Assembly: GCF_013752535.1 (NCBI RefSeq)
Contig: NZ_CP058348.1
Span: 3,162,001 to 3,226,000, forward strand
Source: Bdellovibrio sp. KM01
GTDB lineage: Bacteria; Bdellovibrionota; Bdellovibrionia; Bdellovibrionales; Bdellovibrionaceae
Direction of reading: 5' to 3'
DNA: 64,000 nt
The notes below the pieces were generated by a model that saw only the letters and a program-made list of their open reading frames with translations, was not told the DNA's origin and made no database searches. Position 1 is the first letter of the stretch, and the number at the start of each line of letters is the position of its first letter. Both the position numbers and the translations under genes were made by a program. Positions 13,523-29,300 of the stretch are shown here, in pieces.

Positions 13523-13595
13523 ATTTGCAAAAGCGCAATGATCTTTCATGATTAATTTGCGTTTGCTCAATGACGAGCCCGCAGAGGAATCTGCA

Positions 13596-15359
13596 ATGTC
13601 TTTAAAAGTAAAATTTCTGCTGATTGTTTCGGTTCTTTTAATCGCTTCTTCCGCGACTATCTTTTTCTTAAATCGCGAGACTTTTCTCTCTGACAAGCGC
13701 TCTTATGTCTATGCCAATGCCCTCGAGAGAATCGATGGAATCAGTCAAAACTTTAATCAGGATTTCAATACCAGTTTCGAAAGAATTCGCTCCGCACTTC
13801 AGCTTTTCGATGCCTCCACTCAACAGTTCCCTCCCCAGGTCAAAGCCCTCGCCAACAACCAAAAATGGGGTGATATTTCGATTTTTATCGCTCAAGACGG
13901 TTTCCCACTGCGTCTTATGGACGTTCTCGGAACACAAATTTCCACCTCGGAAGCGATCACCAACCGACTGACTTCCATGAAGGAAAATGAGCTCATCGTC
14001 GAAAACGACATTCAATTTCCTGACAAGCTCACGGTCCTGTTTCGTCAGGGTCCTTACCGAGTTTACGCAAACTTGCAATTCCCCTTTTTTAAGAATATTC
14101 AAAGCCGCAATGAAGTCGCCCTTTACCTGGCTAAAACCAATCAATGGTGGTTTCCCGCTTCTTCCAATGATGGTTTCAACTCCATCACTCCCCGCCTGAA
14201 AGAATTTTTTCAACAAAGCTCCAGTGGCGTGAAGGACATCGACTTAAATAATCGACGTTATCTGATGTCTTTCAAAAAACTGTCACAGCTGGATGTTTAT
14301 GTTTTTGAAGTCTTCGATAAGAAAAGTATTTTCTCAGTTGTCGATTCCATCATGAACAAAACCTTGGCTGCGAGCTTGATCATACTGGTGATCGGCTTGG
14401 TTGCCGTCTTCCTTTCCATCGATAGTCTCACACAAAACTTGCTTCGCCTGGCAAATGCCATGAGTGAATTTTCAAAACATGGGACTGCGAAGCCTTTGAA
14501 AATTGCCAATAAAGATGAAATTGGGCAAATGGCGGGAGTTTTTAATTCCATGCAGAGCAAGATCGAAGGACTGCTGCAACAGACTCAGGAGAAAGTGCGA
14601 ATGCAGGCGGAACTTGAGACAGCCAAAGAGGTTCAGACGACTCTGCTTCCGAAAATGAAGGTGGAAACAGAGGCCTATTCCCTGAAAGGATATTATCACC
14701 CCGCTTCGGAATGTGGTGGCGATTTGTGGTTTCATAACTGCGCCGAAGATAAAATTTTTGTATTTATCGGCGATGCAACCGGACACGGAGTTCCGGCTGC
14801 TTTGATCACGGCAGCGACTCGTTCCATCTTGTCCTTGACGGTAGATGAAAAAATCTGGAGCCCGGGAAGAACTTTGGGTCGAATCAATCAAGTTCTGTGT
14901 GACGTCGCCAAGGGAGAGAAAATGATGACCGCTTTTGCCGCCACAATCGATTTGAAAGCGGAGAAAATCACTTACGCCAATGCCAGCCATGAACAACCGC
15001 TTTTACTTCCTTTAAGTGAAGAAGGACGCAAGTTCAAAAAATCAGATATCACCTTGCTGGGCGAAGTAAACGGCAAGCGACTGGGACACGAGAAAGACAC
15101 CGTGTACGAGGAGATTTCAACTGACTTCAAATTAGGCCAAACTCTTTTTGCCTATACCGATGGTTTGACTGATGCCGAGAACACCAAGAAAGAACAATTC
15201 GGCGAGCGCACCGTATTTAAGTTGGCAGCGGATGCTTGCACAAAAGGATCTCAGCGAAGCCTTCACGATCAAATAGCCAAACGGATTGTTGAGTTCACGC
15301 AGGAAATCGAACAACCCGATGACATCACTTTCCTTAGCCTTCATTTGCGCGAATCTTAG
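13596..15359 (+). CDS. Membrane-bound SpoIIE/RsbU-type PP2C phosphatase
   Basis: A 587-residue signalling protein. The ATG at 13596 has AGAGGAA upstream; an in-frame ATG at 13548 lacks a ribosome-binding site. Order: TM helix 1 (about 5-24), a periplasmic sensor region of about 220 residues, TM helix 2 (KTLAASLIILVIGLVAVFLS, about 250-272), a HAMP-like linker (KIANKDEIGQMAGVFNSMQS), a coiled coil, then the PPM phosphatase domain: AKEVQTTLLP, SECGGDLW, IGDATGHGVPAALITA, and YTDGLTDAEN. The metal-binding Asp residues are present. RsbU/SpoIIE enzymes dephosphorylate anti-anti-sigma (STAS) proteins. No STAS or RsbW gene is adjacent. It converges with the FliF/FliG-like gene, overlapping its end by 26 bp. 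Confidence 0.92.
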   Translation: MSLKVKFLLIVSVLLIASSATIFFLNRETFLSDKRSYVYANALERIDGISQNFNQDFNTSFERIRSALQLFDASTQQFPPQVKALANNQKWGDISIFIAQDGFPLRLMDVLGTQISTSEAITNRLTSMKENELIVENDIQFPDKLTVLFRQGPYRVYANLQFPFFKNIQSRNEVALYLAKTNQWWFPASSNDGFNSITPRLKEFFQQSSSGVKDIDLNNRRYLMSFKKLSQLDVYVFEVFDKKSIFSVVDSIMNKTLAASLIILVIGLVAVFLSIDSLTQNLLRLANAMSEFSKHGTAKPLKIANKDEIGQMAGVFNSMQSKIEGLLQQTQEKVRMQAELETAKEVQTTLLPKMKVETEAYSLKGYYHPASECGGDLWFHNCAEDKIFVFIGDATGHGVPAALITAATRSILSLTVDEKIWSPGRTLGRINQVLCDVAKGEKMMTAFAATIDLKAEKITYANASHEQPLLLPLSEEGRKFKKSDITLLGEVNGKRLGHEKDTVYEEISTDFKLGQTLFAYTDGLTDAENTKKEQFGERTVFKLAADACTKGSQRSLHDQIAKRIVEFTQEIEQPDDITFLSLHLRES

Positions 15360-17088
15360 TCACTTTGATGGCTCCATCAATCAGATCAGTCATGGTGATG
15401 GAGCGATACTCCAAGATCGTTTCAATTTGCAGGCAAATTTTTCTGCGGGTCTCGGCCGTGATTTTTTGTGAAGGAATCATGGCCATATCACTTAGCTCTC
15501 TCTCTAAAATCATCGCTTTTTTCTCTGGCAATGCCGACAAAGCGGCGTTGATAACAGGGCGTTGGCAACGGAAAAATGCTCCGTAAAGCATTTCCACTTC
15601 AAACAGCCCCAATACCTCAGACAGAATGTCTCCTGGTACCAATGCAACGTCTTCAAAAATCAAAATCGAACGACGAACACGCTCCAACTCCGCAGGATTT
15701 TCCACCGCAAACAGTGTCAGAATATTCATTTCTTCCTCTGGTGACATACCACGGATGACCTTTGACAAGACTGTGGCGCCATCCACCCTCGGCTCTGGCT
15801 TCAGACGGATTTCGCTGACACGTTGTTTGAATGCTTGAATCACAGACTGCAAAACGTCATGAGGAATCTTTTCAATGCGAGAGAGCTCACCCATCACGCG
15901 GATTTTCTTATCTCCTTCCAGAGTTGCCAATATACCCGCTGTGACTTCTGACGGCGCATGCAAACACAGTATTGCAATATTTTTGGCACTTTCTTTCTCC
16001 AGGATTTGGGTTCGTTGATCATCACGCAATTTTAAAACGAAATTAAACGGACCGGCTTCGTCTTCAGCCATTTCGTGTTCGATGTAAGAAGCAAGCAAGG
16101 CACGATAAGTTTCTCGCACGCCTTTTTCAATTTGCGCTGGCAACGGATCACCAGAGCGCTCTTTAACCGAACGCCCCATCCGAGCCCAAGCCATGGCTGG
16201 AATTTCTGTAAAAAGATGCTTCGCTGTATCCCAACCGATAAAGTCCATCAGGTAAGTTGTATTTTCTTCGGCTCCTTGCAAGCAATACTCGGCAATGGCC
16301 CGAGATGCCATTTGAGGATATTGAGTTCCAATTTGAATGACGTGCTGGCGCACACTTTCCAAATCCATATCCCAAACCATTTCTTCTGATTTGGCAGCGA
16401 CCACTGGATCTGCGGGTGCACTTACCACAGGCGGAACAACTTCCGGTTTTGAATCTGGTTTGTCATCAGGTTCATGGATGTATTCATGGTTTTCTTTGAT
16501 GTCTTTCTTCGCATCTGCATTTTTACTGCGTCTCCAAACTGCAAACATCAATCCGGCAACCGCTAACAGAGACAGAATTACCACCAGCACCCACGTTTTC
16601 CACGTCAACTCTGGCAACTGTTTCGGTGGCTCTTGAACTTTGGGATCCATGGGCAATTCGATGCGACGGATATTTACGGCGTCACCGGCTGTGGAATCCA
16701 AATGGAGTTTAGAGACCAATAGATCACGGATCACCTTTTCCACTTCCGGAGAAACATTGCGCGACAAAACCACGCTGATGTCGGTCTTGGCTTTCATTTC
16801 GTGAAGCTTATTTGCAGCCATAGGAGCCACCGGCACATCACCCATCATCGGCATACCTGGAAGATATTGAAGCTCTGCTTCCTCATGAAACTCTTTCAGC
16901 TTCTTTTCATCTCGATCCAATTCCACTGAAACAACCAGAGTATACTCCGTGGGACGAAGAATTGTATTCAACACCGAGCGGGCTCTGACCTCGTACAGAC
17001 TTTCCAAGGAGCCAATTTCTTCGATATACTGGGCTTTCACAACCAGGGACGAAAGCACAAGTGCCAGAACTAAAAAAACGTGCTTCAT
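15334..17088 (-). CDS. FliF-like/FliG-like fusion membrane protein
   Basis: A 584-residue protein with AGGAGG upstream of its ATG. Residues 1-19 are a signal peptide or N-terminal membrane segment. Residues about 30-150 follow the C-terminal periplasmic part of the flagellar MS-ring protein FliF: RARSVLNTILRPTEYTLVV, a loop, TDISVVLSRNVSPEVEKVIR, then AGDAVNIRRIELP. A TM helix follows (about 165-186), then a charged, proline-rich linker. Residues about 350-565 follow FliG middle and C-terminal domains: SAKNIAILCLHAPSEVTAGI, ILIFEDVALVPGDILSEVLG, and the charged torque-helix region LPEKKAMILERELSDM. This would be an MS-ring and rotor-switch protein in one chain. Homology is read by eye. It overlaps the upstream gene by 4 bp and is the last gene of a four-gene cassette just downstream of motAB. 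Confidence 0.72.
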   Translation of the reverse strand: MKHVFLVLALVLSSLVVKAQYIEEIGSLESLYEVRARSVLNTILRPTEYTLVVSVELDRDEKKLKEFHEEAELQYLPGMPMMGDVPVAPMAANKLHEMKAKTDISVVLSRNVSPEVEKVIRDLLVSKLHLDSTAGDAVNIRRIELPMDPKVQEPPKQLPELTWKTWVLVVILSLLAVAGLMFAVWRRSKNADAKKDIKENHEYIHEPDDKPDSKPEVVPPVVSAPADPVVAAKSEEMVWDMDLESVRQHVIQIGTQYPQMASRAIAEYCLQGAEENTTYLMDFIGWDTAKHLFTEIPAMAWARMGRSVKERSGDPLPAQIEKGVRETYRALLASYIEHEMAEDEAGPFNFVLKLRDDQRTQILEKESAKNIAILCLHAPSEVTAGILATLEGDKKIRVMGELSRIEKIPHDVLQSVIQAFKQRVSEIRLKPEPRVDGATVLSKVIRGMSPEEEMNILTLFAVENPAELERVRRSILIFEDVALVPGDILSEVLGLFEVEMLYGAFFRCQRPVINAALSALPEKKAMILERELSDMAMIPSQKITAETRRKICLQIETILEYRSITMTDLIDGAIKVTKIRANEG

Positions 17089-18071
17089 TTAGCGCCTCCT
17101 GAAATGGTCAATAAAGAAAGGGCCATGCTTTTGGTCTCGGGATAACGCGACTGATTGGCAATGCGCTGGACATCGGAGCGATACTTATCGACAACGTTCA
17201 ACTCGCGAACCCCCACTAAGAAAGCATCTTCCGCATTTTCACTATCGTACGAATTTTTTGCCAAGGATTCCAAATGGCTGCTCAGATCTTCCTTAATCAG
17301 TTGATGACGAATTACCAACTGTTTAAAAATCATCGCGCGATATTGTTGCGGATAAGATTTAAAGTTCTTAGCCACTTCATTCCATAACTCGGCCGCTGCT
17401 TTTGCATCCCGCATTTGAGCAATCAGCACAACGCCCTGATAGGGATCTTGTTTGGACGTGATTTTGTCGCGAACGATCTTTCGACCTTTTTCAGGCAAGG
17501 GATTCAGACGCAACAACGTTTCCCCCACGATGTCTCTTTGATTTCTTTGACCTTCGGCTGTCGCTACGCCATAGAAATGTGACAGCGCATTTATCGTCTC
17601 CTCGGGTAAGGAACTAAACTTCAATAAAACTTTAGACGCATAACTAAGAGCCTGAGCCTCCGGGCCCAATACCGGCTTTTCACGCTTGCCCATCATGTAT
17701 TCTGCAATGGCAACTTGTAGCCCCTGTAAAGACTGTTTGTCCTCGGGTTTCCACTCAGGTTTGGTCACATCAAGAATATAAATACTCGCCTGAAAAAATG
17801 AGATATTGTCCTGGACATTCTTATTCAGCCCAAACATCGAACGCAGTTGTACAAAGTCTTTTGCTTTCCAGGCTTTTCCAACAGGAGAATCCAAATGGGT
17901 TTTTAAAGCCATTCCCGCGTTGAGCTGTGCCGCTTTTAGGACCTCAATGCCACCTTCATGAGTTACTCCTGTCGTTTTCACAACCGCCCGATCCTTACGA
18001 AGCAAATATCCAGCGGCAACGGCAAGTCCAATCAAAACAATTCCCGATACTAAAACATTTGTCTTTTTCAT
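17085..18071 (-). CDS. Membrane-anchored helical-repeat protein of the motor-like cassette
   Basis: A 328-residue protein (start ATG at 18071; a GTG at 18077 overlapping the previous stop is the alternative). Residues about 5-24 form a single N-terminal hydrophobic helix (LVSGIVLIGLAVAAGYLL), leaving most of the chain in the periplasm. The rest is helical and recalls HEAT/TPR-like packing (AKAAAELWNEVAKNFKSY, YRAMIFKQLVIRHQLIKEDL, AEDAFLVGVRELNVV). I do not recognise the family. Its stop overlaps the start of the FliF/FliG-like gene by 4 bp and its start abuts the outer-membrane-like gene, so all are translationally coupled. A scaffold linking membrane layers fits the context but is inference. 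Confidence 0.65.
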   Translation of the reverse strand: MKKTNVLVSGIVLIGLAVAAGYLLRKDRAVVKTTGVTHEGGIEVLKAAQLNAGMALKTHLDSPVGKAWKAKDFVQLRSMFGLNKNVQDNISFFQASIYILDVTKPEWKPEDKQSLQGLQVAIAEYMMGKREKPVLGPEAQALSYASKVLLKFSSLPEETINALSHFYGVATAEGQRNQRDIVGETLLRLNPLPEKGRKIVRDKITSKQDPYQGVVLIAQMRDAKAAAELWNEVAKNFKSYPQQYRAMIFKQLVIRHQLIKEDLSSHLESLAKNSYDSENAEDAFLVGVRELNVVDKYRSDVQRIANQSRYPETKSMALSLLTISGGAK

Positions 18072-18073
18072 AA

Positions 18074-18661
18074 TCACTCAAAGCCCACAAAGCGCAGGCC
18101 AGCAAAAAGAGTCATAAATTGATAACTGACACTGTCTTCTTCACTCGAGGCGGTCAAACTGCTTCCCAAAGCCACCTGTCCCACCAATAGCATGTTGGAC
18201 ATTACCGGGATCTCGACCCCGCCCCGCACACTCAAATCCAGTAACGACGCATTTAATTTATCCACGGCCAAATTACTTAAACCTAAATTCATCGCGATAA
18301 ATGGAGTCGAACGCCACACCTTCGCCTGTGTGCGACTGTCCAACACCGTACGCATTCCGTTCACACCCATTAAATAGTAACGAGCACCAACTGCAATTCG
18401 CGTAAAGGGCAATTGCAATCCCCCGGCGTCAGTGATTTCCATAAATGACAATGTCATGGCCGTATTAATGGAGGGATTATTGATGCTGTAATTTACTTCC
18501 ACCGTCGTAGAAGATTCCAATGACTTAGAAGCCTCTAAGCGAGAAAAGTCGTACTGCAGGCTCGTGATCCCCAGACTGGCATCCCAATCTGATGTCATAT
18601 ACGCCCACGCTGGACTTGAAACAAAAAGTACAACAAGAATCCCCCAGAGTTTATACATCAT
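18074..18661 (-). CDS. Small outer-membrane beta-barrel-like protein
   Basis: A 195-residue exported protein with a signal peptide cleaved after SSPAWA. The mature chain alternates polar and hydrophobic residues in short strands (TVEVNYSINNPSINTAMTL, PFTRIAVGARYYLMGV, PFIAMNLGLSNLAV, NMLLVGQVALGSSLTA) and ends with YQFMTLFAGLRFVGFE, an aromatic final strand fitting an 8-stranded outer-membrane barrel. The family is not recognised. It is overlapped by 4 bp at both ends region-wise: ATGA with the PEGA/TPR lipoprotein gene upstream, and a near-zero gap to the helical protein downstream. In the cassette it would provide the outer-membrane component. Confidence 0.65.
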   Translation of the reverse strand: MMYKLWGILVVLFVSSPAWAYMTSDWDASLGITSLQYDFSRLEASKSLESSTTVEVNYSINNPSINTAMTLSFMEITDAGGLQLPFTRIAVGARYYLMGVNGMRTVLDSRTQAKVWRSTPFIAMNLGLSNLAVDKLNASLLDLSVRGGVEIPVMSNMLLVGQVALGSSLTASSEEDSVSYQFMTLFAGLRFVGFE

Positions 18662-19548
18662 CGGACCTGTGTATCTCGGCGACGCTTTTCTATCTCAACA
18701 TTAGAAGCAGGATATCTCATCTCTGCACCTGTTTGCGGAAGCGGTGCCATTCCTAAACGTTTATAAACATCAGACAAATATTGATACGCTACTTTATTAT
18801 AGGGATCGATCTTCAGGCAGCGCTCCCAAGCGATCTTGGCACCTTCAAAGTCCTTCTGCAGATATTTGATGGAACCTTTCAACAGCCACGCATTGTTGGA
18901 GTACTCATCCATCGTGAGGGCTTTGTCTACTTCTGCCAGGGCCTGTTTATAATCACCCTTCATGATAGATTTCTGACCTTGAAAAATAAGTCCAACCACC
19001 CGTTCACTGCGATCACGATCTTGAGTGGGCATGCCGCCGGATAAACGCGGCGAGAACAATGCATCTTTATAAAATGACGATGTATTTTCCAACAAGGCCA
19101 CACGTAATTTCAGCTCGGCGAGGTCTGCTAACAAATCTTCCATCTTTTTGTCTTCAGGTTTTTTCTTGTCATCCGGTTTTGGCGGCTGTTGATCCTGTTT
19201 TTTATCGTCGTTTTTAGCTAGCTCTTCGGCCTTCTTTTCCTCATCAGACAAGGGATCCAGACGGGCTTGCACGGCAATACTTTCACCTTCATTGACCTTC
19301 ACCATGACTTCTTTGGTACGATAGTTTTGCTTTTCAAAGATCAGGAAGAAGACATCACCCAGTTTTGATTCCTCCTGAATATTCAGCGGAGAAATTCCCA
19401 GTAGTTTTTTTTCATTCGTCTGCATATCCTTAACGTAAACCTTTGAACCTTGAGGATAAGATTTAATGGAATACTTTCCCGCGCAGGCCGAAACCAACAC
19501 TGACGAAAGAACAAGGAACAACATTTTCAGTTGTTGTCTTAGAAACAT
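18658..19548 (-). CDS. PEGA/TPR lipoprotein of the motor-like cassette
   Basis: A 296-residue lipoprotein; the ATG at 19548 has GGAGG eight bases upstream (an in-frame ATG at 19563 is less likely). Signal peptide with lipobox VSAC. Residues about 20-95 look like a PEGA domain (SYPQGSKVYVKDMQTNEK ... LGISPLNIQEESKLGDV ... FEKQNYRTKEVMVKVNEG), a small surface or peptidoglycan-associated beta fold. A Lys/Asp/Pro-rich linker follows, then a coiled segment, and two or three TPR repeats near the C-terminus (ALAEVDKALTMDEYSNNAWL, KDFEGAKIAWERCLKIDPYN). It is the first gene of the cassette, overlapping the barrel-like gene by 4 bp. Partner binding through TPRs is inferred. Confidence 0.78.
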   Translation of the reverse strand: MFLRQQLKMLFLVLSSVLVSACAGKYSIKSYPQGSKVYVKDMQTNEKKLLGISPLNIQEESKLGDVFFLIFEKQNYRTKEVMVKVNEGESIAVQARLDPLSDEEKKAEELAKNDDKKQDQQPPKPDDKKKPEDKKMEDLLADLAELKLRVALLENTSSFYKDALFSPRLSGGMPTQDRDRSERVVGLIFQGQKSIMKGDYKQALAEVDKALTMDEYSNNAWLLKGSIKYLQKDFEGAKIAWERCLKIDPYNKVAYQYLSDVYKRLGMAPLPQTGAEMRYPASNVEIEKRRRDTQVR

Positions 19549-19633
19549 TTCCATATCCTCCATGACATGTGAAACTGATTGAAGCGGCTCGCTGATTTCA
19601 TTCTCCTAACCAGAGAGGAAAAAAACATATTCT

Positions 19634-20248
19634 ATGAAACCATTCTTCACTTTGGTCCTAATCTTACTGTTCGGTGATGTTTCGGGTGCTAGTATTCAGG
19701 CGCCGATGCTGAAAGCAAAGCTCTCCATGTACAATACAACCGTATCTGCCGGAGAGTTGGTGCATGATGAAACTTTGGGCAGCATGATGACAATTCAACC
19801 AACGCTGTTGTGGGATATACCCTCCATGAATTCGCGTGTGGGCGTTCACTATATTCTTGATATCAATAGTAAATACGGAGCCACTCCGATCTCAGGAATC
19901 GGACTCAGTGGCTACTACTATTTTAAAGGATTGTCTTCGGCTTATGAAATCAGCCCAGACGAAGTATTACTGCAGAAATCTCGTCCAGGAATATTTACCT
20001 TCGCAAGCTTTACTCCGGTGAACTTCAATCTGAATAAACTGGATAAAAGTGATCCAAATCAATCGTTTTCTTTCAGTGCCCTGGTGTATGAATTTATTCT
20101 GGGCGCCGGTTTTGAATACCCTTTAAAACCAAACTCCTTGCTTTCATTCGAGCTTTCAATGAGAGAAGGCTCCTCAGCCTCGAATGACCTTTCGGTCAAG
20201 TATTCGGGATTTGGAGCCTCCTTGGTATTCTCGACTTCGTATTACTGA
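19634..20248 (+). CDS. Exported hypothetical beta-rich protein
   Basis: A 204-residue protein with signal peptide MKPFFTLVLILLFGDVSGA. The mature part is rich in short amphipathic strands and aromatic residues (SRVGVHYILDINSKYG, GIGLSGYYYFKGLSS, LVYEFILGAGFEYPL) and ends in YSGFGASLVFSTSYY, consistent with an outer-membrane beta-barrel. It recalls the 195-residue barrel-like protein at 18074-18661 in size and style but is not clearly a paralogue. It is transcribed in the opposite direction to the cassette (85 bp between starts) and its end overlaps the end of motB by 7 bp. Confidence 0.65.
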   Translation: MKPFFTLVLILLFGDVSGASIQAPMLKAKLSMYNTTVSAGELVHDETLGSMMTIQPTLLWDIPSMNSRVGVHYILDINSKYGATPISGIGLSGYYYFKGLSSAYEISPDEVLLQKSRPGIFTFASFTPVNFNLNKLDKSDPNQSFSFSALVYEFILGAGFEYPLKPNSLLSFELSMREGSSASNDLSVKYSGFGASLVFSTSYY

Positions 20249-21195
20249 GCTTTTTGCTCGTAACTCTTAGTTTTTGTTTCGAGAGCCTCGATTTGCTTCT
20301 CGAGCTTTTGTAACTGTTGTTCTTTACGCTTCTGCTCAGCCTGTTCACGGTATTTGCGCTGAGCTTCTTCGAACCGAACCTTGGCGAGTTTCATCTTATC
20401 CTGAAGCTCGTTTTCTTTCTTCTGGCGTTCCACTTCTTCTTTAGTCAGCTGCTTCTTAAACTGTTGCTGCTGCAGGCGATAAGCCTCTTCCGGATCCATC
20501 AATTTCACTTGAACGACCACCCGACGATTGGCAGCCTTGTTGATTTCAAGCGGATTTCCCTGAGCATCTTTTTCAGGAGCCACAGGATGAGACGAACCAA
20601 AACCAACAGCCGCCAAGACATTCGAACTCAGACCACTTTCTTCAAAGTATCTGACCACAGAGCTAGCTCGCATGGATGAAAGCTCCCAGTTTGATTTAAT
20701 CACGGAGCTTTGCATAGGATCGCCATCGGTATGACCTTCGACGCTGATTTTCTCAACACTTGGAACCGTTCGCAACGCCGCCACAACTTGGCGCAAAGCT
20801 GGTTTAGCAGCGTCTTTCAACTCGGTCGCACCCGATTCAAAAAGAACATTGCCTTCGAATTTGAGTTGCAGAGTATTGTCAGAGCCTTTCGAGATCTCGA
20901 CACCTTTCATTTCTCCTGAACCCAGCAAAGCCGTTTTTAGCTTTTGCTCTGCCTCGAGAACCGTGCTGATTTCCTTGATGTTACCGCCAAAGTATTTAGC
21001 GACTTCTTTACGAACCAAATCGAAGCGCGTGTTATCAAAACGAGAGAGCGAATACATCAAAACGAAGAAACCAAACAACAAAGTCATCATATCGGCGTAA
21101 CTGACCAGCCAGTTGGATTCGTCGTGAGCACTGCTGTGCTCCTGACCATGTTCATCATCATGGTGACGACGATAATTGCGTTTATGCGCGCCCAT
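20242..21195 (-). CDS. motB: MotB-type stator protein with long C-terminal coiled coil
   Basis: A 317-residue stator subunit. After a His-rich N-terminus comes the single TM helix with the proton-carrying Asp35 in SNWLVSYADMMTLLFGFFVL, the plug region (SRFDNTRFDLVRKEVAKYFGG) and an OmpA-type peptidoglycan-binding domain (about 125-235: VEGHTDGDPMQ, NWELSSMRASSVVRYF, AANRRVVVQV). The final 80 residues are an unusual Lys/Glu/Gln coiled coil (KEEVERQKKENELQDKMKLA ...), absent from typical MotB. MotB anchors the stator to the wall while ion flow through MotA4B2 turns the rotor. It starts one base after the motA stop, so the two are coupled. Confidence 0.93.
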   Translation of the reverse strand: MGAHKRNYRRHHDDEHGQEHSSAHDESNWLVSYADMMTLLFGFFVLMYSLSRFDNTRFDLVRKEVAKYFGGNIKEISTVLEAEQKLKTALLGSGEMKGVEISKGSDNTLQLKFEGNVLFESGATELKDAAKPALRQVVAALRTVPSVEKISVEGHTDGDPMQSSVIKSNWELSSMRASSVVRYFEESGLSSNVLAAVGFGSSHPVAPEKDAQGNPLEINKAANRRVVVQVKLMDPEEAYRLQQQQFKKQLTKEEVERQKKENELQDKMKLAKVRFEEAQRKYREQAEQKRKEQQLQKLEKQIEALETKTKSYEQKAQ

Positions 21196-22002
21196 CTAAG
21201 CCACCTTTTTCAACGAACCAACATCACCGCCGTCTTGTCTTTGTTGCGGAGGCAAGAAAGACTTCAAATATTCTCGGATAAACATCGGGTGCTTCTTTTC
21301 ATGAATCAGCAAGACACCTTCTTTAATAATCTCACGCAACGTCAAGTCCGCTTGAGAAACGCTGGAAAGTTTTTCCGCAATCGGAAGCAACACTAAGTTG
21401 GCTGTTAACAGACCATAGAAAGTTGCAACCAGAGCTGTGGCCATAGCTGGACCGATGCGATCCTGAGCTCCGGGCTCACCCAGTGTTTGCAAAAGAGAGA
21501 TCATCCCCAACGTCGCACCCAACAAACCGAATGCTGGCGGGAATCTGGAGATCGTCTGCCATACTTTGATTTCATCAGCATCACGTTTCTTTTTACCACG
21601 AACGGCATTATGCAAGATTTCATCTAGCTCTTCATGATTGAAACCGTAATCTAACAAAAGATGGACACCGTCTTTGAGGAAAGGATGGTCCGTAGGCTTC
21701 ATCATAGTTTGAAGAGACTTAGGATCCTTGCGATATGACTCTGATAGCGTCACGATTCTTTCAATCGACTCATTATAGTTGATGGCACGTTCGCGACCGA
21801 AGTACTTGCGAGCGATAATTTTCAGCGCGCTCCAAAGACTTTTAAAGTTGAAACTCATCAAAGCCACTGTAATCGTACCACCGATGACCAGGGCGATCCC
21901 GTGTGGATCCGCAAAAACTTTTGGGTTTTTTGCACTGTCCATGATCGCAAAAGCTGAAATACCTACCGCAGCAATTAATCCCAGTAATCCTGCAAAGTTC
22001 AT
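21196..22002 (-). CDS. motA: MotA-type stator protein
   Basis: A 268-residue inner-membrane protein with four TM helices: LLGLIAAVGISAFAIM, HGIALVIGGTITVALMSF, FGLLGATLGMISLLQTL and ALVATFYGLLTANLVLLPIA. Between TM2 and TM3 is the charged cytoplasmic domain that contacts FliG, and the conserved prolines of the ion channel are present (RFPPAFGLLG, LLPIAEKL). TTTGGAGGCGCT precedes the ATG. Together with MotB it forms an ion-driven torque unit. B. bacteriovorus is known to carry more than one motAB pair; this one is flanked by the FliF/FliG-like cassette and not by flagellar structural genes, so its rotor may not be the flagellum. A TATG-type -10 box lies about 45 bases upstream. Confidence 0.95.
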   Translation of the reverse strand: MNFAGLLGLIAAVGISAFAIMDSAKNPKVFADPHGIALVIGGTITVALMSFNFKSLWSALKIIARKYFGRERAINYNESIERIVTLSESYRKDPKSLQTMMKPTDHPFLKDGVHLLLDYGFNHEELDEILHNAVRGKKKRDADEIKVWQTISRFPPAFGLLGATLGMISLLQTLGEPGAQDRIGPAMATALVATFYGLLTANLVLLPIAEKLSSVSQADLTLREIIKEGVLLIHEKKHPMFIREYLKSFLPPQQRQDGGDVGSLKKVA

Positions 22003-22161
22003 AGCGCCTCCAAATAGAGCTCGAAATATTTACATACTAAATCGTAAGAAGATTTGATTCGCTGAACTGTACCTAGGCTTAGATTTCCAAATTACCTCAC
22101 GATTGCTTTTTCGAAAACGTACTTCGCATTTATACTAAGAGCATTAGCAAGGATGAAATTC

Positions 22162-22548
22162 ATGACCGTAGCTATCACAATCGTTTTTATCGCTGTTTGC
22201 CTCGTAGAAATCGTTCTTATAACCAAAGAAGTTCACCGAACATCAACGAACACTTTGTCGAAAACTGAGTCTCCAAAGCTTGTCAGTGAGACTCAAGTCC
22301 TCGCTGAAAAACTGGCAGTTACCACTCAGAAATTGGAAGAGGCGCAAAGAGAAATTCAAGGTATCAATGTGCTTTGGAATAGAAGCTTACAGGTAGAACA
22401 GCGCCTACGGGCTGATCTCGAAATTGCAAAAGTACAACTGACATATCTGGCTCAAACGCTTTTAAAAGTTAAAGCCGGTAAAACACAAACGGCTTACTGG
22501 ACTGAAAATGAAAAAGCATCCGAGCTCGTCCAAAAGGATTTCATGTAA
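22162..22548 (+). CDS. Small membrane-anchored coiled-coil protein
   Basis: A 128-residue bitopic protein. The start at 22162 has AAGGA eight bases upstream; an in-frame ATG at 22153 is inside that site's spacing and less likely. Residues about 2-22 form a TM helix (VAITIVFIAVCLVEIVLITK), and residues about 40-105 a coiled coil (VLAEKLAVTTQKLEEAQREI, EQRLRADLEIAKVQLTYLAQ). Similar short TM-plus-coil proteins exist in many chemosensory and envelope clusters, but I cannot assign a family. It is divergent from motA (about 160 bp between starts); a TATACT -10-like box lies about 25 bases before the start. Confidence 0.6.
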   Translation: MTVAITIVFIAVCLVEIVLITKEVHRTSTNTLSKTESPKLVSETQVLAEKLAVTTQKLEEAQREIQGINVLWNRSLQVEQRLRADLEIAKVQLTYLAQTLLKVKAGKTQTAYWTENEKASELVQKDFM

Positions 22549-22553
22549 ATCAA

Positions 22554-23786
22554 TCATTTGCATTCGATGACCGAATATCCCGCTCCGTCTTTGGTGTTCG
22601 CTGCTAACAGATGACGCTGTCCCGGTAATACCACCCACATCTGCTGATGCGCCAAAGAGTTTCTTAAAAATGGATCGTCAATCTCGTAACTCTGCTTGGT
22701 ACCTTCTGCCGTCACGTGTGTTAGGAGAAATTTATCAAAGAAATAGTAGCTCTTATAGCGCTCCGCCACCCAATAGCCATTTACTTTTTTTGATTCCTCT
22801 AACGAATAATCACCACGAAAGGCTAAAGGCTCCGCTGTCATGATGAAGGGAGCATCCGCCCGATTGTTAGCCAAATCAGAGAGCTTATAGAGCTTCCATT
22901 GTTCGGTGCGATCCAACCAGCCACTGACTTTAACGCCGAATACGTTTTCTTTGCTTACTACGAAATCAGCAAGACCGTCTTTTAGTGGCGATAATGGCAA
23001 GGGATCCAATTTGAATTTATCGACCGCCACACTATAGAGACTCAGCGTGCCTGAAATTCCAGAAGAAAAGCCCATCAGGCCGTCGTCCACGCGTAAACGT
23101 GCATGGCGATTTTCCGCAAGTTGATTACACTGCCCCACACTCAAACTGCTATCCGGGTCCACTACCATCAAAGTGTCAGGAGAACGACCCACTCCTTTGG
23201 GAACATAGTCCGACAGACGTCGTAAATCATAAAAACCAATTTGGCCCTTGGCGTTTGCAAAGACGACATTATCGCGATTCACTCGTTGAATGCGAACATC
23301 CTCTGACCAGTTGCCCGTGCAAAGCCCCAAATTGGATTTTTCCAAAGCTTTGCTCTTATTTAAGTTTACGGCAACGATTTGTCCAAGGTTGCTGCGAATA
23401 AAGGCCCAGTCTTTGTTTGTTCCCGCCAACTGAAACTCTCCCGCACCTGAATTCTTTAACGAACTGGCATGACGGGCATTAAGATCCCAATAAGGCTGTG
23501 CATCTTCGGCAAACCCCATTTTTCCAATAAGCCATCCGTCTTTATTTTCAGTCAGACCCGCAATCATATACTGACCATCCGGATTGATATACAGATGGGT
23601 CAATAAACCCATTTTTTGATCTCCCACCTTGATTGGCCCGGAGTATTTAACCTGGCACTGTAGAGGCACACCTGCACTCTTAGGCAAGTTCTCAAACAAG
23701 GTCACAAACAGCAGGACCAACGACAAAAATATCGCTGAGAACACCGGAACTTTAATCGACAAAGGAATCTTTTTTACTTTATTCAT
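22554..23786 (-). CDS. Membrane-anchored hypothetical protein ending the surface operon
   Basis: A 410-residue protein (ATG at 23786; a GTG at 23795 overlapping the previous stop is possible). A basic N-terminus precedes one TM helix (VPVFSAIFLSLVLLFVTLF, about residues 11-30). The exported remainder is beta-rich and contains several short repeats around aromatic-glycine turns (HLYINPDGQYMIAGLTENKD, GMGEFQL-like and WAFIRSNLGQIVAVNL segments), which could be a propeller-like fold; four cysteines are present. I do not recognise it. It is the last gene of the 20-kb surface operon and is coupled to the VWA gene. Confidence 0.6.
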   Translation of the reverse strand: MNKVKKIPLSIKVPVFSAIFLSLVLLFVTLFENLPKSAGVPLQCQVKYSGPIKVGDQKMGLLTHLYINPDGQYMIAGLTENKDGWLIGKMGFAEDAQPYWDLNARHASSLKNSGAGEFQLAGTNKDWAFIRSNLGQIVAVNLNKSKALEKSNLGLCTGNWSEDVRIQRVNRDNVVFANAKGQIGFYDLRRLSDYVPKGVGRSPDTLMVVDPDSSLSVGQCNQLAENRHARLRVDDGLMGFSSGISGTLSLYSVAVDKFKLDPLPLSPLKDGLADFVVSKENVFGVKVSGWLDRTEQWKLYKLSDLANNRADAPFIMTAEPLAFRGDYSLEESKKVNGYWVAERYKSYYFFDKFLLTHVTAEGTKQSYEIDDPFLRNSLAHQQMWVVLPGQRHLLAANTKDGAGYSVIECK

Positions 23787-23791
23787 AGCAG

Positions 23792-25153
23792 TCACTTCTT
23801 AACCTTCGAGCACTGAAGCTTCACAACTTCCTTGTTTGAGCCCATAATGATGTCTTTAAAAATACATTTATCATCGACACGAATTTCATAAACGCCCTTA
23901 CCCAGAACCAGCGGGAAGTTCGTCACGTGATTTCCCATCATGATGCCCCGGTTACCGAAGACATAGATTCCCTTAACCTGAGGATCCTCGACATAAGCGA
24001 CACCGGCTTCCTCGATGGTATATTCGTATTCCGCATTCGGCACCACGAGGTAGTTATTCACGACTTTTTCATAAAAAGGATCTCGGTAAAATCGGAAGTT
24101 CCATTTTCCTGGTGGCAATGACACAACGGCGTCACTATTAAAGCGTTTGACCACCTTACGGTTTTTATTCAGAAGTTCCACCTTCATCAAGCCGTCAATA
24201 AAGTTCGCTTTAAACTTGGCTTCGCCCTTCACTTTCAAGGTCACCTTTTTATTTGGTGGAACTATAAATTCCTTAAAGCGATATTTCGGTTTCAGATTCA
24301 CGACCGCATAATACCTGCCCGGAGGAACCTGAATCCCATAAGACGCCTGGAATCGACGGTAGATCTCATTGGGAGTTTCAGCACGGAACAACATCACGGT
24401 TGCTTGCGGCTCCGGGCTGTCGACAAATAGATTCTTATTGGGATTCAAATCTTTATCTAGGTCTTCAAACATTTTATCCAATTGTTCCTCATCATCAGCC
24501 TGATGAAGATCGCCGATACATTTTAGCTTTTGCAAAGTTTCTTGTTGCCCTTGCAGCCCAAATGCCACGACAAAGAACTTCAAATCCACATTCTTATTTT
24601 TGAACTCTTCAGAAAGCTTGCAGGGATCTTTGCCACAGGTTTCCTCTCCGTCCGTAAAGATTACCACACGCTTAGGACCATCGTACTTTTCCAAATCCTT
24701 ATAAGCCTCTTTCATTGAATCATAAAGAGGTGTCATGCCCACCGGATCCATTGACTTCACCATGCCCTCGATAAGACCCAACTTGGCATTACCAGGAGGG
24801 ATTGCCAGATAGTTGTCCTTACAATCTTTTTTGCGACGTGAGCCAATGACTCGCATGCCACTGGAAGTTTTTTCCGTCCACTGAGAAACCAAATAACGGG
24901 ATAAGAGCTTCTTCATGACAAAGATTTTGGTTTTCTTGCCTGTGAGAATTTGTCCCATCGATCCGGAACTGTCGATAATGTATTCCACCAAAGGTGTCGG
25001 TACACCCTGCAGCTCGCCCAGATCCGCAGTTCCCTGTTCACTGACGGGAATCTTCGATGGATCATAGTCAAACTTGTCCAAGTCTTCGGCACCAAATGCC
25101 GAAGTGACAGAAAATCCCAATAAAAGAGTCAAACAAAGGGCTTTAATCATCAT
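23792..25153 (-). CDS. Secreted von Willebrand factor A domain protein
   Basis: A 453-residue protein with signal peptide ending SAFGA. Residues about 50-240 are a VWA domain with a complete metal-ion-dependent adhesion site: IIDSSGSMG, GMTPLYDSM and IFTDGEETCG. The remaining 210 residues hold two or three beta-sandwich segments of PEGA/carboxypeptidase-regulatory type (VPPGRYYAVVNLKPKYR, SLPPGKWNFRFYRDPFYE, VLGKGVYEIRVDDKC). VWA domains bind protein ligands through a divalent metal. It overlaps both neighbours by about 4 bp (ATGA with the outer-membrane-like gene upstream), so it belongs to the operon of giant surface lipoproteins and may bind them or a prey or host surface ligand; that is inference. 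Confidence 0.85.
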   Translation of the reverse strand: MMIKALCLTLLLGFSVTSAFGAEDLDKFDYDPSKIPVSEQGTADLGELQGVPTPLVEYIIDSSGSMGQILTGKKTKIFVMKKLLSRYLVSQWTEKTSSGMRVIGSRRKKDCKDNYLAIPPGNAKLGLIEGMVKSMDPVGMTPLYDSMKEAYKDLEKYDGPKRVVIFTDGEETCGKDPCKLSEEFKNKNVDLKFFVVAFGLQGQQETLQKLKCIGDLHQADDEEQLDKMFEDLDKDLNPNKNLFVDSPEPQATVMLFRAETPNEIYRRFQASYGIQVPPGRYYAVVNLKPKYRFKEFIVPPNKKVTLKVKGEAKFKANFIDGLMKVELLNKNRKVVKRFNSDAVVSLPPGKWNFRFYRDPFYEKVVNNYLVVPNAEYEYTIEEAGVAYVEDPQVKGIYVFGNRGIMMGNHVTNFPLVLGKGVYEIRVDDKCIFKDIIMGSNKEVVKLQCSKVKK

Positions 25154-26343
25154 CTTGTCTTCATAAGTTTGCTGACGAAATCATCTAAACGGAGACCTAA
25201 CATCACTTTGAAATACGACTGACTTTCGCTGTAGGATTGCCCCGCGGGAATGACATAAGCTCCATCGGGTGCGCTCTTGGTATCTCCAGAGAAACTCATT
25301 TCTGCCTGGGATAAACCATAACTGACGTCCAGCGAATAACGTTTCAACCATGGAATAAATGGAACATAGAACAAGGCCGTTGCACCCACCTTGATTTCCA
25401 TCATGGTGCCCGACGAGGCGCCGCCGCGACTTACGGAACCATCGGTTACGTTATAACTCAGGAAATAGTTCATATCGCAATAGACACGGTTTAACTTCCA
25501 ACCCAGCCCTTTTTCCGTCTTATATAAATTGTCCGAGAAGAGATAATGAAAGTTCACTCCCAATCCCAACCCGGAAGACTGCGAGGATAAAACATACTCA
25601 TCCTCGTTCGTCGTAATAAATTTATTCCCGAGGGAGATCAGCTTTAATGTGGGACGTAGTTCTTTCCAAATCGGCAGCATGCGATAGTGCAACGACATGC
25701 GTGTTTCTTCTGACGTCGTGGGACGATCTTCGCGATAGTAGGATTTCACCGGAATCCCCGCACTAGAAGATTGATACTCGATACCGTATCTCCACAGCAT
25801 GTCGATATACCAAAGAAAATGCATCTCAGTGAATTTGAAGTCATAGACTTTGTATTGATTCGCCTGATTGGGAGACTGACTTTCAAAATGCCCCTGATAA
25901 GTTCCCATTTCAAAAATCATATACCCTGGCTCATAGGGATCTGCTTGCTCAATAATAGGAACATCCGGTGGCTGAGGGAAAAGAGGATCATCTGGCGGAG
26001 GTTTCAGTTTCGACAAACTGACAACCCAGTCCCGAGCTTTAGGAATTTTAGAAATAGAAGGGCCTTCCATAACAACCAATAGCTCATTGTTCTGAACGGT
26101 TTCAGCGGCTCCACGGGCAATCACCTCGACGTCATCGCCCTGAACACGCAGGACGACCACCAAGTCACCCACGGCAACGCGATTGCTGCGAGCCAAAAAG
26201 ACCACGTCGTCCATCACGCGACGAACGGGAACTGCATTCTTTTTGATGAAGTCGATGTTGATCCAGCTACTGGCCAAGGCCAGTTCGCTAAGGCAAAAAG
26301 ACATCCATGTTGCCATCATTAAGATGATAAAAATCCTTTTCAT
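25150..26343 (-). CDS. Exported outer-membrane-type protein
   Basis: A 397-residue protein with a signal peptide (MKRIFIILMMATWMSFCLSE, cleaved near LALA). Residues about 25-105 look like a small beta domain (RVAVGDLVVVLRVQGDDVEV), followed by a Pro/Asp-rich stretch (PPPDDPLFPQPPDVP) and about 260 residues of strand-rich sequence with alternating aromatics (FLWYIDMLWRYGIEYQSS, GLGVNFHYLFSDNLYKTE, MLGLRLDDF) typical of outer-membrane barrels. No known family recognised. It directly follows the 2068-residue lipoprotein (stop and start adjacent) and overlaps the VWA gene by 4 bp. It could anchor or export the large surface proteins of the operon, but no export motif is visible. Confidence 0.65.
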   Translation of the reverse strand: MKRIFIILMMATWMSFCLSELALASSWINIDFIKKNAVPVRRVMDDVVFLARSNRVAVGDLVVVLRVQGDDVEVIARGAAETVQNNELLVVMEGPSISKIPKARDWVVSLSKLKPPPDDPLFPQPPDVPIIEQADPYEPGYMIFEMGTYQGHFESQSPNQANQYKVYDFKFTEMHFLWYIDMLWRYGIEYQSSSAGIPVKSYYREDRPTTSEETRMSLHYRMLPIWKELRPTLKLISLGNKFITTNEDEYVLSSQSSGLGLGVNFHYLFSDNLYKTEKGLGWKLNRVYCDMNYFLSYNVTDGSVSRGGASSGTMMEIKVGATALFYVPFIPWLKRYSLDVSYGLSQAEMSFSGDTKSAPDGAYVIPAGQSYSESQSYFKVMLGLRLDDFVSKLMKTR

Positions 26344-29300
26344 CTATTTTGCTCTGAAAACCTTTCCTTTGCTTCGGCTGATCAATAAGATCTGCCCGGA
26401 ATCGTAACTCGCAATACTTGAGATCGGCGCCGGTGCGGCACTCACGTAAACGTGATTGTCGTTAAGATCAATTGTGAAAACTTGGTTGGCGCCTTCCATC
26501 GTTCCGATCAACAGACGATCTGCCGCCCTTAAAACCAAACGTCGACCGGCACCAGGGACGTCAAATGCCGAAGCGTTCAATTCGTTTACCCCGATATACT
26601 GCATACTACCCGTGGTCGGTGTTGAGGAACTGCCATCAGGGAATGTCACGACTCCACCTGTACCGCTTAACAGTGCATAGACGCGGTTGGTGACGGAATC
26701 ATATACAACATCCGTCGGCTTACAGTCTTCATGTCCTGTCACGCCATCAAATACCGGCAACGTGGCGACCAATGAAGGAGTTCCTCCACTGCGGGCTGCC
26801 GTCACACTGAAAACATAAATTTTGTGAGAAACAGACGGAGTCGTCTGTTGCGTGGTCACATACAAGCGATCAATGGCCCGATTCAACGTCATACCTGTGA
26901 TCTTTGAAGTTCCAAAACTGTACACCATCTTAGGGTTGTCTGGCGTCAGATAGTCGTAATACAAAACGTTCTGTGAATCAGAGGCATAGAACGTATAGGC
27001 CGAGTCCATCGAAGCCGTGATACGCGAATCTGAATAAAAAGGACTGGTATAAAGCTGAGTTGGACAGTCACCGGAACATTTATTGCTGCCGCTAAGTGTG
27101 AGTGCGGTTAGATCTCCGTTGAGGATATGCAAAGCTTCGGTCGTCAGTCCGAAAGGACCACCGCGCGCGACCTGCGACGTCATCAACATATCATAACCAG
27201 TTCCCACAGGGTTGATCGCCACGCGACGAGTGGAGGCACCTGTCAACCATGGCAATGACTCCGTAAAGTTCCATGGTGGGATTGTCACGGTACCATTCGG
27301 TTTAGCGACCACTCCATTCACGCTCAACAAATCCCACAGGAAGTGCTTGGTAAATGAACCCGACAAATAACTTCCGTAAATGATCAAATGATCCTGATAG
27401 CTTGTCCCTTGAGAGATACCATAAGGAATTTCGCCACTCCAAGTGACATTCAAAGGAGTCGTGGCCGGCAAACTTTCCGTTCGAGCCGCCGTTAAATCAA
27501 AGATCGATTCTCCCAGGAGATAAGTATTTTTAACTTTCACATTCCAAGTTCGTGAAACGGTATAGTTACCATCCGTCACGTCCACTCGAACCGAGAATTC
27601 CCCGGCAGTTTTAGGCCCACTGCCGTCCACGTCAACTGAACCATCCGTATCCAATGGTTTGAAAATGTAAGAAGGCCCTTCGTCATATTTCAATACGTCA
27701 TTCACATACCAGCGATAGAACAAAGTATCATTAGTATTTGGATCCGTCGCATTTACCAAAAAGTTCAATGAAGCTTTTTCGGAAATCAAAACTGAATCTG
27801 AGGATGGAATGACTGAACTAATCACTGGCGGCTCTTCCAGAGGAGAAATCGCACTTTGAACTTTCAGATAAAAGTGAGCGGCATCCGTTTCTCCCGTGAC
27901 GGCGTCACGAACCTGAACACGGACCAGGCTGCCAGCGCCATTGGTCGACGTCAAATCGGTCGTATAGTTTGGAACCCAAGAAATCACTCCCGTTGTGGGA
28001 TCAATACACATGCCATTTATTTCGCCACAGGCGCGAGGAGAATTTAAAAGCGAATACTCCAGTGGATTCTTCTGCGAGTTGTTCACCAGCACTTCATATC
28101 TGAATGGATAGGAACCCATACTCGCTGCGGTTTGGGGCATAAAATGAATTGGAATATTACTGATATCCACACGAGGACTGACCAAGAATACCGGCGCGAC
28201 AACTGTGATTTGCAATGGGGCCGAACTGATGGCACGACTTGAAGTAATTCCGTCACGGTCCACATCCCCATTATCACTCACATCCAATTCGGCAGAGTAA
28301 ACACCGATGTGACCACGTTGCGGACACCATTCCATTTGATACTTCTGACGAAGGACACCCGATACCAGCTCCGGTGAACCCACTGGACTGAATTTAGGCA
28401 CCGCAAGATCGGTATTCAGAACACCACTGCTGTAGCATGGACTCACCGTACGATTTTTATCGTAGGAGCTATCAAATGCCACTAATTCAGAAGCAAATGT
28501 TGTCGTCGTCGCATGACAAATATAGGGATCAGAAGAACCCGAATCCAAAACAGCATTTTGCAAAGGATTCCCATTGCTATCACGGCAAATGGATAGCAAC
28601 GTCGAAAACGTGCCTCCCTGAGGAATATAAGCATCATTATCGTAAAGATAGAATTCCTTTTTTACATACGTATCGGCAAAGACTCGAACCTGATTGTCCG
28701 TCGCCATTTGCCCAATAGAAGGAATCTGATTTTTATTGATCACACGAATTTTGTAATAACCATAAATCGTTTGCGTTAAATCCGGTGAGGACTTGGCATC
28801 ATAGATCTTCATCTTGACAACAAATCCCGCCGCACCAGAAAACTTTTTAGATTCCTGATCCGTTGGTGTCCAAGAAATTCGCGCCGTCGTTTTACTTCCT
28901 GCCGTTGCTGTGAGGTCTTCGACCTTATCCACGCTCACACTCAGACCCGCAGGTCGCGTAACCCAGGTATTGGTTTTCAAATCATAAACTTGAGGATCCA
29001 ATTCAAAATTAGTCGTCTTAAGTTCAATCCCTTTGTTGGTATCTTTAGTATACAGATTGTAATATCCGGCGACGCCTTCTTCGTAGTCTCCCAGGTAAAC
29101 TGGATTCGAAGTCGATGCACCCAGGCCAGCACTAAAGGTCGTAAAAGAACTGTCTGTCAAAATAGACGGATGATTGATCTCATTGACCACCAAAGTAATA
29201 TTCGTCGTCCACGATGCCGCCGACGTCCATGTATCAGGATTTCCTTTATTCATGATCTCATTGACCGTTAATTTGAATGAGAATGTTCCTGACAAATCCG

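Follow-up and report, generated by a model that had tools for sequence, protein, structure and literature searches.

A co-inherited FliF-FliG fusion and MotAB cassette of Bdellovibrionota as a candidate non-flagellar rotary machine

A 64,000-nucleotide stretch of the genome of Bdellovibrio sp. KM01 (the window, always meant here at its full length) carries a minus-strand gene cassette in which a FliF-FliG fusion protein is encoded together with its own MotA/MotB pair and with proteins of the outer membrane. The fusion and the stator pair are homologous to parts of the flagellar motor, the genes are tightly linked and inherited together, and they coexist with a separate flagellar gene set. We consider it fairly probable that the cassette encodes a dedicated rotary machine that is ion-driven, spans the cell envelope and is not a flagellum. 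A preliminary description of the locus had suggested a possible non-flagellar motor; this is the best-supported reading, but it is unproven, and every cassette-bearing genome tested is also flagellated.

In the order of transcription, the cassette consists of motA and motB, followed by the genes for a PEGA/TPR lipoprotein, an outer-membrane barrel (barrel A), a helical membrane protein and the fusion. The last four follow one another at distances of -4, +2 and -4 bp; motB abuts motA (0 bp). The open reading frames (ORFs) described are all present and intact at the coordinates and on the strands given below. This bears out the four-gene run with overlaps and near-zero gaps that had been described previously, as well as the position of motB and motA just upstream on the same strand with one divergent gene between them (19634-20248, which encodes a second barrel, barrel B).

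Rotor and stator

The protein encoded at 15334..17088 (-), 584 amino acids in length, is a true FliF-FliG fusion as judged by sequence and structure prediction. A signal peptide or anchor (residues 1-19) precedes a periplasmic RBM3-like domain (about 20-146), a transmembrane (TM) segment (about 163-188) with positive charges directly after it, a linker, and a FliG-like armadillo part (about 270-571). Pfam recognises FliG_M (E=3e-7) and FliG_C (E=4e-6), and returns no match for the FliF part, whose likeness to FliF comes from structure. When a profile of 15 homologues was compared to the PDB, it matched Thermotoga FliG (1lkv) with E=1.4e-27, spanning both the M and the C domain. In the AlphaFold 2 (AF2) model, the single domains are usable, though their placement relative to each other is not (mean predicted local distance difference test score, pLDDT, 74; predicted template modelling score, pTM, 0.34). 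A Foldseek search with this model gave FliG for all of the top 13 matches and FliF chains for all of the following 18, the latter with a probability of 1.00. Using VIA-align, residues 14-146 superimposed on the Vibrio FliF RBM3 ring (8z5v) with a Z of 12.5, a root-mean-square deviation of 2.2 A over 100 residues and 23% identity, and the Z values against FliF S-ring structures ranged from 9.8 to 12.5; residues 271-566 superimposed on C-ring FliG (8wiw) with a Z of 15.7. It should be kept in mind that OsmC-like chains reach a Z of 9.5 on residues 14-146, such that common alpha-beta folds are outscored by a moderate margin only. We nonetheless keep the RBM3 assignment, because the FliF structures rank first and are closer in sequence, and because the domain precedes a TM segment and FliG. 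A generic MgtE-like or other armadillo protein, or the head of an E-ring protein, was considered and rejected, since FliG M and C align over 210 residues (E=1e-27) and an RBM3 domain lies ahead of the TM segment.

The fusion deviates from its flagellar counterparts in several respects. Its periplasmic part of about 140 residues is a single RBM3-like domain, and RBM1 and RBM2 are absent. Across 14 aligned fusions, Glu is the sole residue of the FliM-binding EHPQ motif that never varies, and every one of them lacks its His and Gln; in two of these genomes, the canonical FliG retains the whole motif. In the torque helix, the same 14 fusions all carry an acidic residue at the position of E. coli D289, whereas D288 is replaced, and the R281 position is occupied by Lys in 12/14 and by Asn in 2/14. 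The gene next to that of the fusion (17085..18071, -) encodes a fast-evolving, all-helical protein that is anchored in the membrane by one N-terminal TM segment; homologues are found in other cassettes at E values from 1e-16 to 4e-4, with weak alignment. In one genus, labelled g41 here, a FliF-like protein with an RBM3-like domain and a TM segment, but no FliG, is encoded just ahead of the fusion (L042:8850-10022, L043:8475-9506, L045:8348-9325, L050:7299-8534), which suggests that the two proteins form a two-component ring in this genus.

The stator genes lie at 21196..22002 (motA, -) and 20242..21195 (motB, -). MotA matches MotA_ExbB in Pfam (5e-23), and MotB, whose TM segment contains the channel Asp (SYADMMTLL), matches MotB_plug (3e-16) and the peptidoglycan-binding OmpA domain (8e-18). 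The MotA is of the flagellar, PomA-like type and not of the TolQ/ExbB class: NCBIfam assigns it to PomA with 3e-44 as compared to 2e-5 for TolQ, and PomA/MotA structures are the closest to it in the PDB. In a MotA tree, the MotAs of cassettes like that of the window (type 1) form a clade of their own (support 0.92). The clades of two paralogous cassette types, 2 (0.94) and 3 (1.0), are its neighbours, and all three are separate from flagellar MotAs and PomA. The channel Asp is present in every type 1 MotB. Every type 1 MotB also extends 91-216 residues beyond the OmpA domain, as compared to 13 in a canonical MotB and 7-50 in other cassette MotBs. In the window, this charged C-terminal tail is 91 amino acids long and is specific to type 1 cassettes; such a tail is absent from the flagellar MotBs that were compared. 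We view it as a candidate coupling element.

Inheritance as a unit and paralogous cassettes

Our main sample consisted of 192 Bdellovibrionota genomes, 19 of which carry the type 1 fusion. When 49 genomes were searched for both the fusion and the PEGA lipoprotein, 9 had the two together, 40 had neither, and none had just one of them (Fisher p=5e-10). The preliminary description had called for a check of whether the cassette and motAB occur together. A MotA of the type 1 clade, counted at 55% identity or more, was found in 25/25 cassette genomes (in one case as a fragment at a contig edge) and in 0/20 cassette-negative relatives, most of which retain other MotAs. The MotAB of the cassette is thus gained and lost together with the fusion. 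Loss of the cassette in relatives that keep motAB had been named as a finding that would speak against the motor, and such loss does occur in the literal sense for flagellar motAB; it is no refutation, because the cassette's own motAB disappears along with the cassette. The p values for co-occurrence (6e-13 to 5e-10) are based on genome counts that ignore shared ancestry.

Recurrences of the unit, with varying gene order and orientation, span at least four families. Since the arrangement is found in 17 genome records outside the window and in divergent families, it is not due to chance. A scan of 84,980 species with PEGA-derived patterns yielded 17 loci, all of which belong by name to Bdellovibrio, Bdellovibrionaceae, Bdellovibrionales or Oligoflexia, though spread beyond Bdellovibrionota was judged by exact patterns only, such that other phyla could still carry the cassette. 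In plasmids, tblastn turned up nothing but an ordinary fliG. Type 1 cassettes are absent from many Bdellovibrio, several of which carry none of the three types, and most flagellated relatives lack type 1 as well.

Type 2 cassettes consist of a PEGA/TPR lipoprotein, a fusion of about 600 amino acids, a barrel, motA and motB. Their fusion aligns with that of type 1 over 533 columns (probability 99.3) and their lipoprotein aligns likewise (99.5); FliG matches were obtained for 3/4 type 2 fusions tested. Type 3 has a protein of 750-900 amino acids, with a long periplasmic part, a TM segment and FliG M and C, which is accompanied by a TPR protein and motAB. It is found in 37/192 genomes and is widespread in deep-branching families (for example L051:7761-12268, L052 and L122-L124). 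Taken together, fusions of types 1-3 are present in 59/192 genomes, and each paralogous type carries its own MotAB.

The KM01 genome itself holds a second cassette, of type 2, outside the window (2549064-2553652; L112:3065-7653), with a PEGA/TPR lipoprotein, a fusion-like protein of 616 amino acids, a barrel, motA and motB, and with an adjoining HAMP-SpoIIE phosphatase. A Bdellovibrio that was negative for the cassette (G157) has several type 2-like copies (at L117 and two further places), one of them near a protein of 1390 amino acids with an endosialidase-chaperone (Peptidase_S74) domain.

Envelope and surface components

The PEGA/TPR lipoprotein (18658..19548, -) was identified by its lipobox, by Pfam (TPR_2 1e-7; PEGA weak, 0.01) and by its co-occurrence with the fusion. 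It is the best-conserved component that is specific to the type 1 cassette, with an invariant lipobox Cys and a mean column identity of 65%. Barrel A (18074..18661, -) is modelled with eight strands (pLDDT 82), and its top Foldseek matches are the outer-membrane proteins NspA, OmpA, OmpX and OmpW. The divergently encoded barrel B (19634..20248, +) is paralogous to barrel A according to hhalign (probability 98.9) and is found in other cassettes, too. The parts list proposed previously, of a stator, a fused rotor and peptidoglycan-binding and outer-membrane parts, is hence backed by structure, synteny and co-occurrence.

The cassette unit extends further than had been recognised: the genes described previously are real, but a third tight operon that belongs to the same unit had been overlooked. 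It runs on the minus strand from 42481 to 22554, with junctions of -14 to +9 bp, and encodes three giant lipoproteins (in the order 3, 2, 1), followed by one secreted, one VWA and one membrane protein. Giant 3 (37778..42481, -; 1567 amino acids) occurs in exactly 10/192 genomes, all of them fusion carriers outside g41. In g41, other giants occupy this place, and the genes for the fusion, MotA and MotB follow one another without interruption. Giant 2 (32560..37791, -) was listed with an ORF that begins too far upstream (32560-38010); its lipoprotein start is the internal ATG near 37791, which was used for the junctions above and is followed by a lipobox. Giant 1 (26344..32550, -; 2068 amino acids) has the lipobox LGGC and homologues beside other cassettes. 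Lipoboxes are thus present in all three giants, and Pfam detects FG-GAP repeats as well as fn3 domains in giants 2 and 3. The secreted protein of unknown fold (25150..26343, -) and the secreted VWA-domain protein (23792..25153, -; VWA E=3e-6, Pfam) are both kept in other cassettes. The last gene (22554..23795, -) overlaps the VWA gene by 4 bp and encodes a protein that has a membrane anchor and a large soluble domain. VWA and FG-GAP domains in combination are reminiscent of adhesins, which we mention as a lead only.

Like barrel B, a small coiled protein with a single TM segment (22153..22548, +) is encoded on the plus strand between the operons, and it is kept at the same place in Bdellovibrio. 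Convergent with the fusion gene lies a gene for a HAMP and SpoIIE-type phosphatase (13548..15359, +; Pfam). Such a phosphatase adjoins several type 1 and type 2 cassettes and stands next to the fusion in Bdellovibrio, and it may well be a regulator. Beyond the giants, the window encodes a protein of 998 amino acids with a weak FecR match (42768-45764); a relative with 34% identity lies beside the cassette of another Bdellovibrio, on the other side (L034:4732-6816).

Mechanism, alternatives and known systems

We infer that the fusion forms a ring, that this ring rotates, and that the machine is separate from the flagellum and has an output of its own. In such a machine, MotA5B2 units anchored on peptidoglycan would rotate as ions flow in, and they would push the FliG-C helices of fusion subunits arranged in a ring. 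In the periplasm, this ring would be formed by the RBM3 domains, with the covalent link standing in for the FliF-FliG joint. The lost FliM-binding motif would mean that no switch complex is formed and that chemotactic reversal does not occur. From the side of the ring that faces the periplasm, together with the helical protein and the MotB tail, movement may then pass to the lipoprotein and the barrels. More speculatively, the surface giants and the VWA protein would be the load and would serve as moving adhesins when the cell travels over surfaces or handles prey, an output that we hold to be less probable than not.

Several observations weigh against this interpretation. Flagellins and canonical FliF were found in 30/30 genomes tested, and none of these 30 genomes has the cassette without a flagellum. 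Work by Morehouse in 2011 on B. bacteriovorus HD100 reportedly showed that each of three motAB pairs, the one discussed here among them, is dispensable, yet contributes to swimming. No periplasmic component of known function that would join the ring to the outer membrane was recognised. Type 1 MotA retains the torque-loop Arg, but lacks an acidic partner equivalent to PomA E96, so that its torque interface differs from the textbook one. Together with the torque helix of the fusion, this residue pattern indicates an interface that is conserved in outline and altered in detail, which would fit a partner pair that has diverged together. Furthermore, a fliL mutant shows altered motA2/motB2 expression (PMC11323537). 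Finally, a role as a universal gliding motor is unlikely, given that many Bdellovibrio lack the type 1 cassette and several lack every type.

The cassette's motAB presumably corresponds to MotAB2 of HD100 (Bd3021/Bd3020): the position agrees, and the cassette is intact in the genome that we take to be that of HD100. An alternative explanation is that the cassette is an accessory module of the flagellum. The fusion would then make up an additional ring, or be incorporated into the MS/C ring, with MotAB2 as an additional stator, providing more torque or adapting a sheathed flagellum to a viscous milieu like that of the prey periplasm. The FliF and FliG domains, the flagellar-type MotAB and the constant company of a flagellum in the genomes tested agree with it, and loss of MotAB2 is said to have had a mild swimming effect in the Morehouse study; it is chiefly this reported effect that keeps the explanation in play. 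MotA2/MotB2 (Bd3021/Bd3020) have also been treated as a flagellar stator (PMC11323537). However, MotB2 does not bind FliL Bd1076 in the two-hybrid assay, whereas MotB3 does (PMC11323537). The fusion has lost the FliM-binding motif, RBM1 and RBM2, and the paralogous cassettes have their own MotAB, while most flagellated relatives do without the cassette. Moreover, the cassette is tied to barrels and giant surface lipoproteins and lies away from flagellar genes: it contains no export, rod or hook genes, and the KM01 genome encodes canonical FliF and FliG together at another place. We therefore regard an accessory flagellar role as unlikely.

We think it improbable, too, that the cassette is an energiser of the outer membrane comparable to Tol-Pal, Ton or GldLM and the type IX secretion system (T9SS), in which ion flow would move the ring in order to export, assemble or rearrange the giants rather than to move the cell. 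The perfect co-occurrence of giant and fusion outside g41 and the conserved lipoprotein and barrels would fit, and in Bacteroidota GldLM serves secretion and motility alike (PMC13104615). Yet the stator is of the PomA/MotA type with a FliG-like partner, nothing in the cluster was recognisable as a secretion channel, and type 2 cassettes may be without FG-GAP giants. That the ring and MotAB are a non-rotating scaffold or surface sensor, which perceives load or contact and feeds the HAMP-SpoIIE phosphatase that accompanies several cassettes of types 1 and 2, is very improbable, because the channel Asp is always present in type 1 MotB, the torque-helix charges are largely retained and the rotor has no signalling domain.

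Returning to the dedicated rotary machine, the three types lead to a broader proposal on which we are evenly divided: Bdellovibrionota may have a family of rotary motors, of at least three types, in which MotAB turns a fused FliF-FliG ring that builds no flagellum and drives outer-membrane or surface structures, and MotAB2 of HD100 would belong to this family and not to the flagellum. A literature search with the HD100 tags that the fusion and the genes around it should bear (near Bd3014-3019) yielded nothing relevant, and we found no published description of the system in a search that covered few subscription papers. A 2026 review regards the machinery behind Bdellovibrio gliding as unidentified (PMC13104615); the Agl/Glt cluster Bd0828-0838 was proposed earlier (PMC3169522). 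In this context, the locus offers a candidate for the motor, along with adhesin-like proteins, in a predator that is tractable in the laboratory, HD100, and experiments that counted MotAB2 as a flagellar stator merit a second look. If our interpretation is true, the best-known biological rotary engine would have been put to a new use, with a FliG-type rotor and a dedicated MotAB working outside the flagellum, and this would bear on the origin of the flagellar motor.

How does the cassette compare to known systems? With the flagellar motor it shares homologous FliF RBM3, FliG M and C, MotA, and MotB with a channel Asp and a peptidoglycan-binding domain. It differs in joining RBM3 and FliG in one protein, in the absence of RBM1/2 and the loss of EHPQ, in its outer-membrane barrels and giant lipoproteins, and in coexisting with a canonical flagellum. 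The E-ring proteins MotE, FlbB and FlgY, too, are membrane-anchored and have FliG-like armadillo heads (PMC13023049), and an E-ring has been seen in the motor of B. bacteriovorus (PMC13023049). However, E-ring heads are small and located just above the MS ring, while the FliG part of the fusion comes after the TM segment, on the predicted cytoplasmic side, and matches the whole of FliG M and C. With a MotA-like protein and a MotB-like protein containing the channel Asp, the cassette can putatively be placed among the 5:2 ion-driven rotary motors. One of these, GldLM/T9SS of Bacteroidota, is a 5:2 rotary stator with surface adhesins as its output (PMC13104615); the cassette has neither GldL/M nor GldKN. 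The Agl-Glt system of Myxococcus likewise couples an ion-driven stator through the envelope to outer-membrane proteins, and Myxococcus has a VWA adhesin, CglB, but AglRQS is TolQR-like and has no FliG rotor, whereas the cassette has a flagellar-type MotAB and a FliF-FliG rotor. The nearest precedent for the rotor comes from Chlamydia, where a natural FliF-FliG fusion exists outside a functional flagellum (PMC4768692). That protein has an RBM2-like part, no RBM3 and only the middle domain of FliG, and has been discussed in connection with the injectisome (PMC4768692); the fusion described here, in contrast, combines RBM3 with both the M and the C domain of FliG and is accompanied by a dedicated MotAB.

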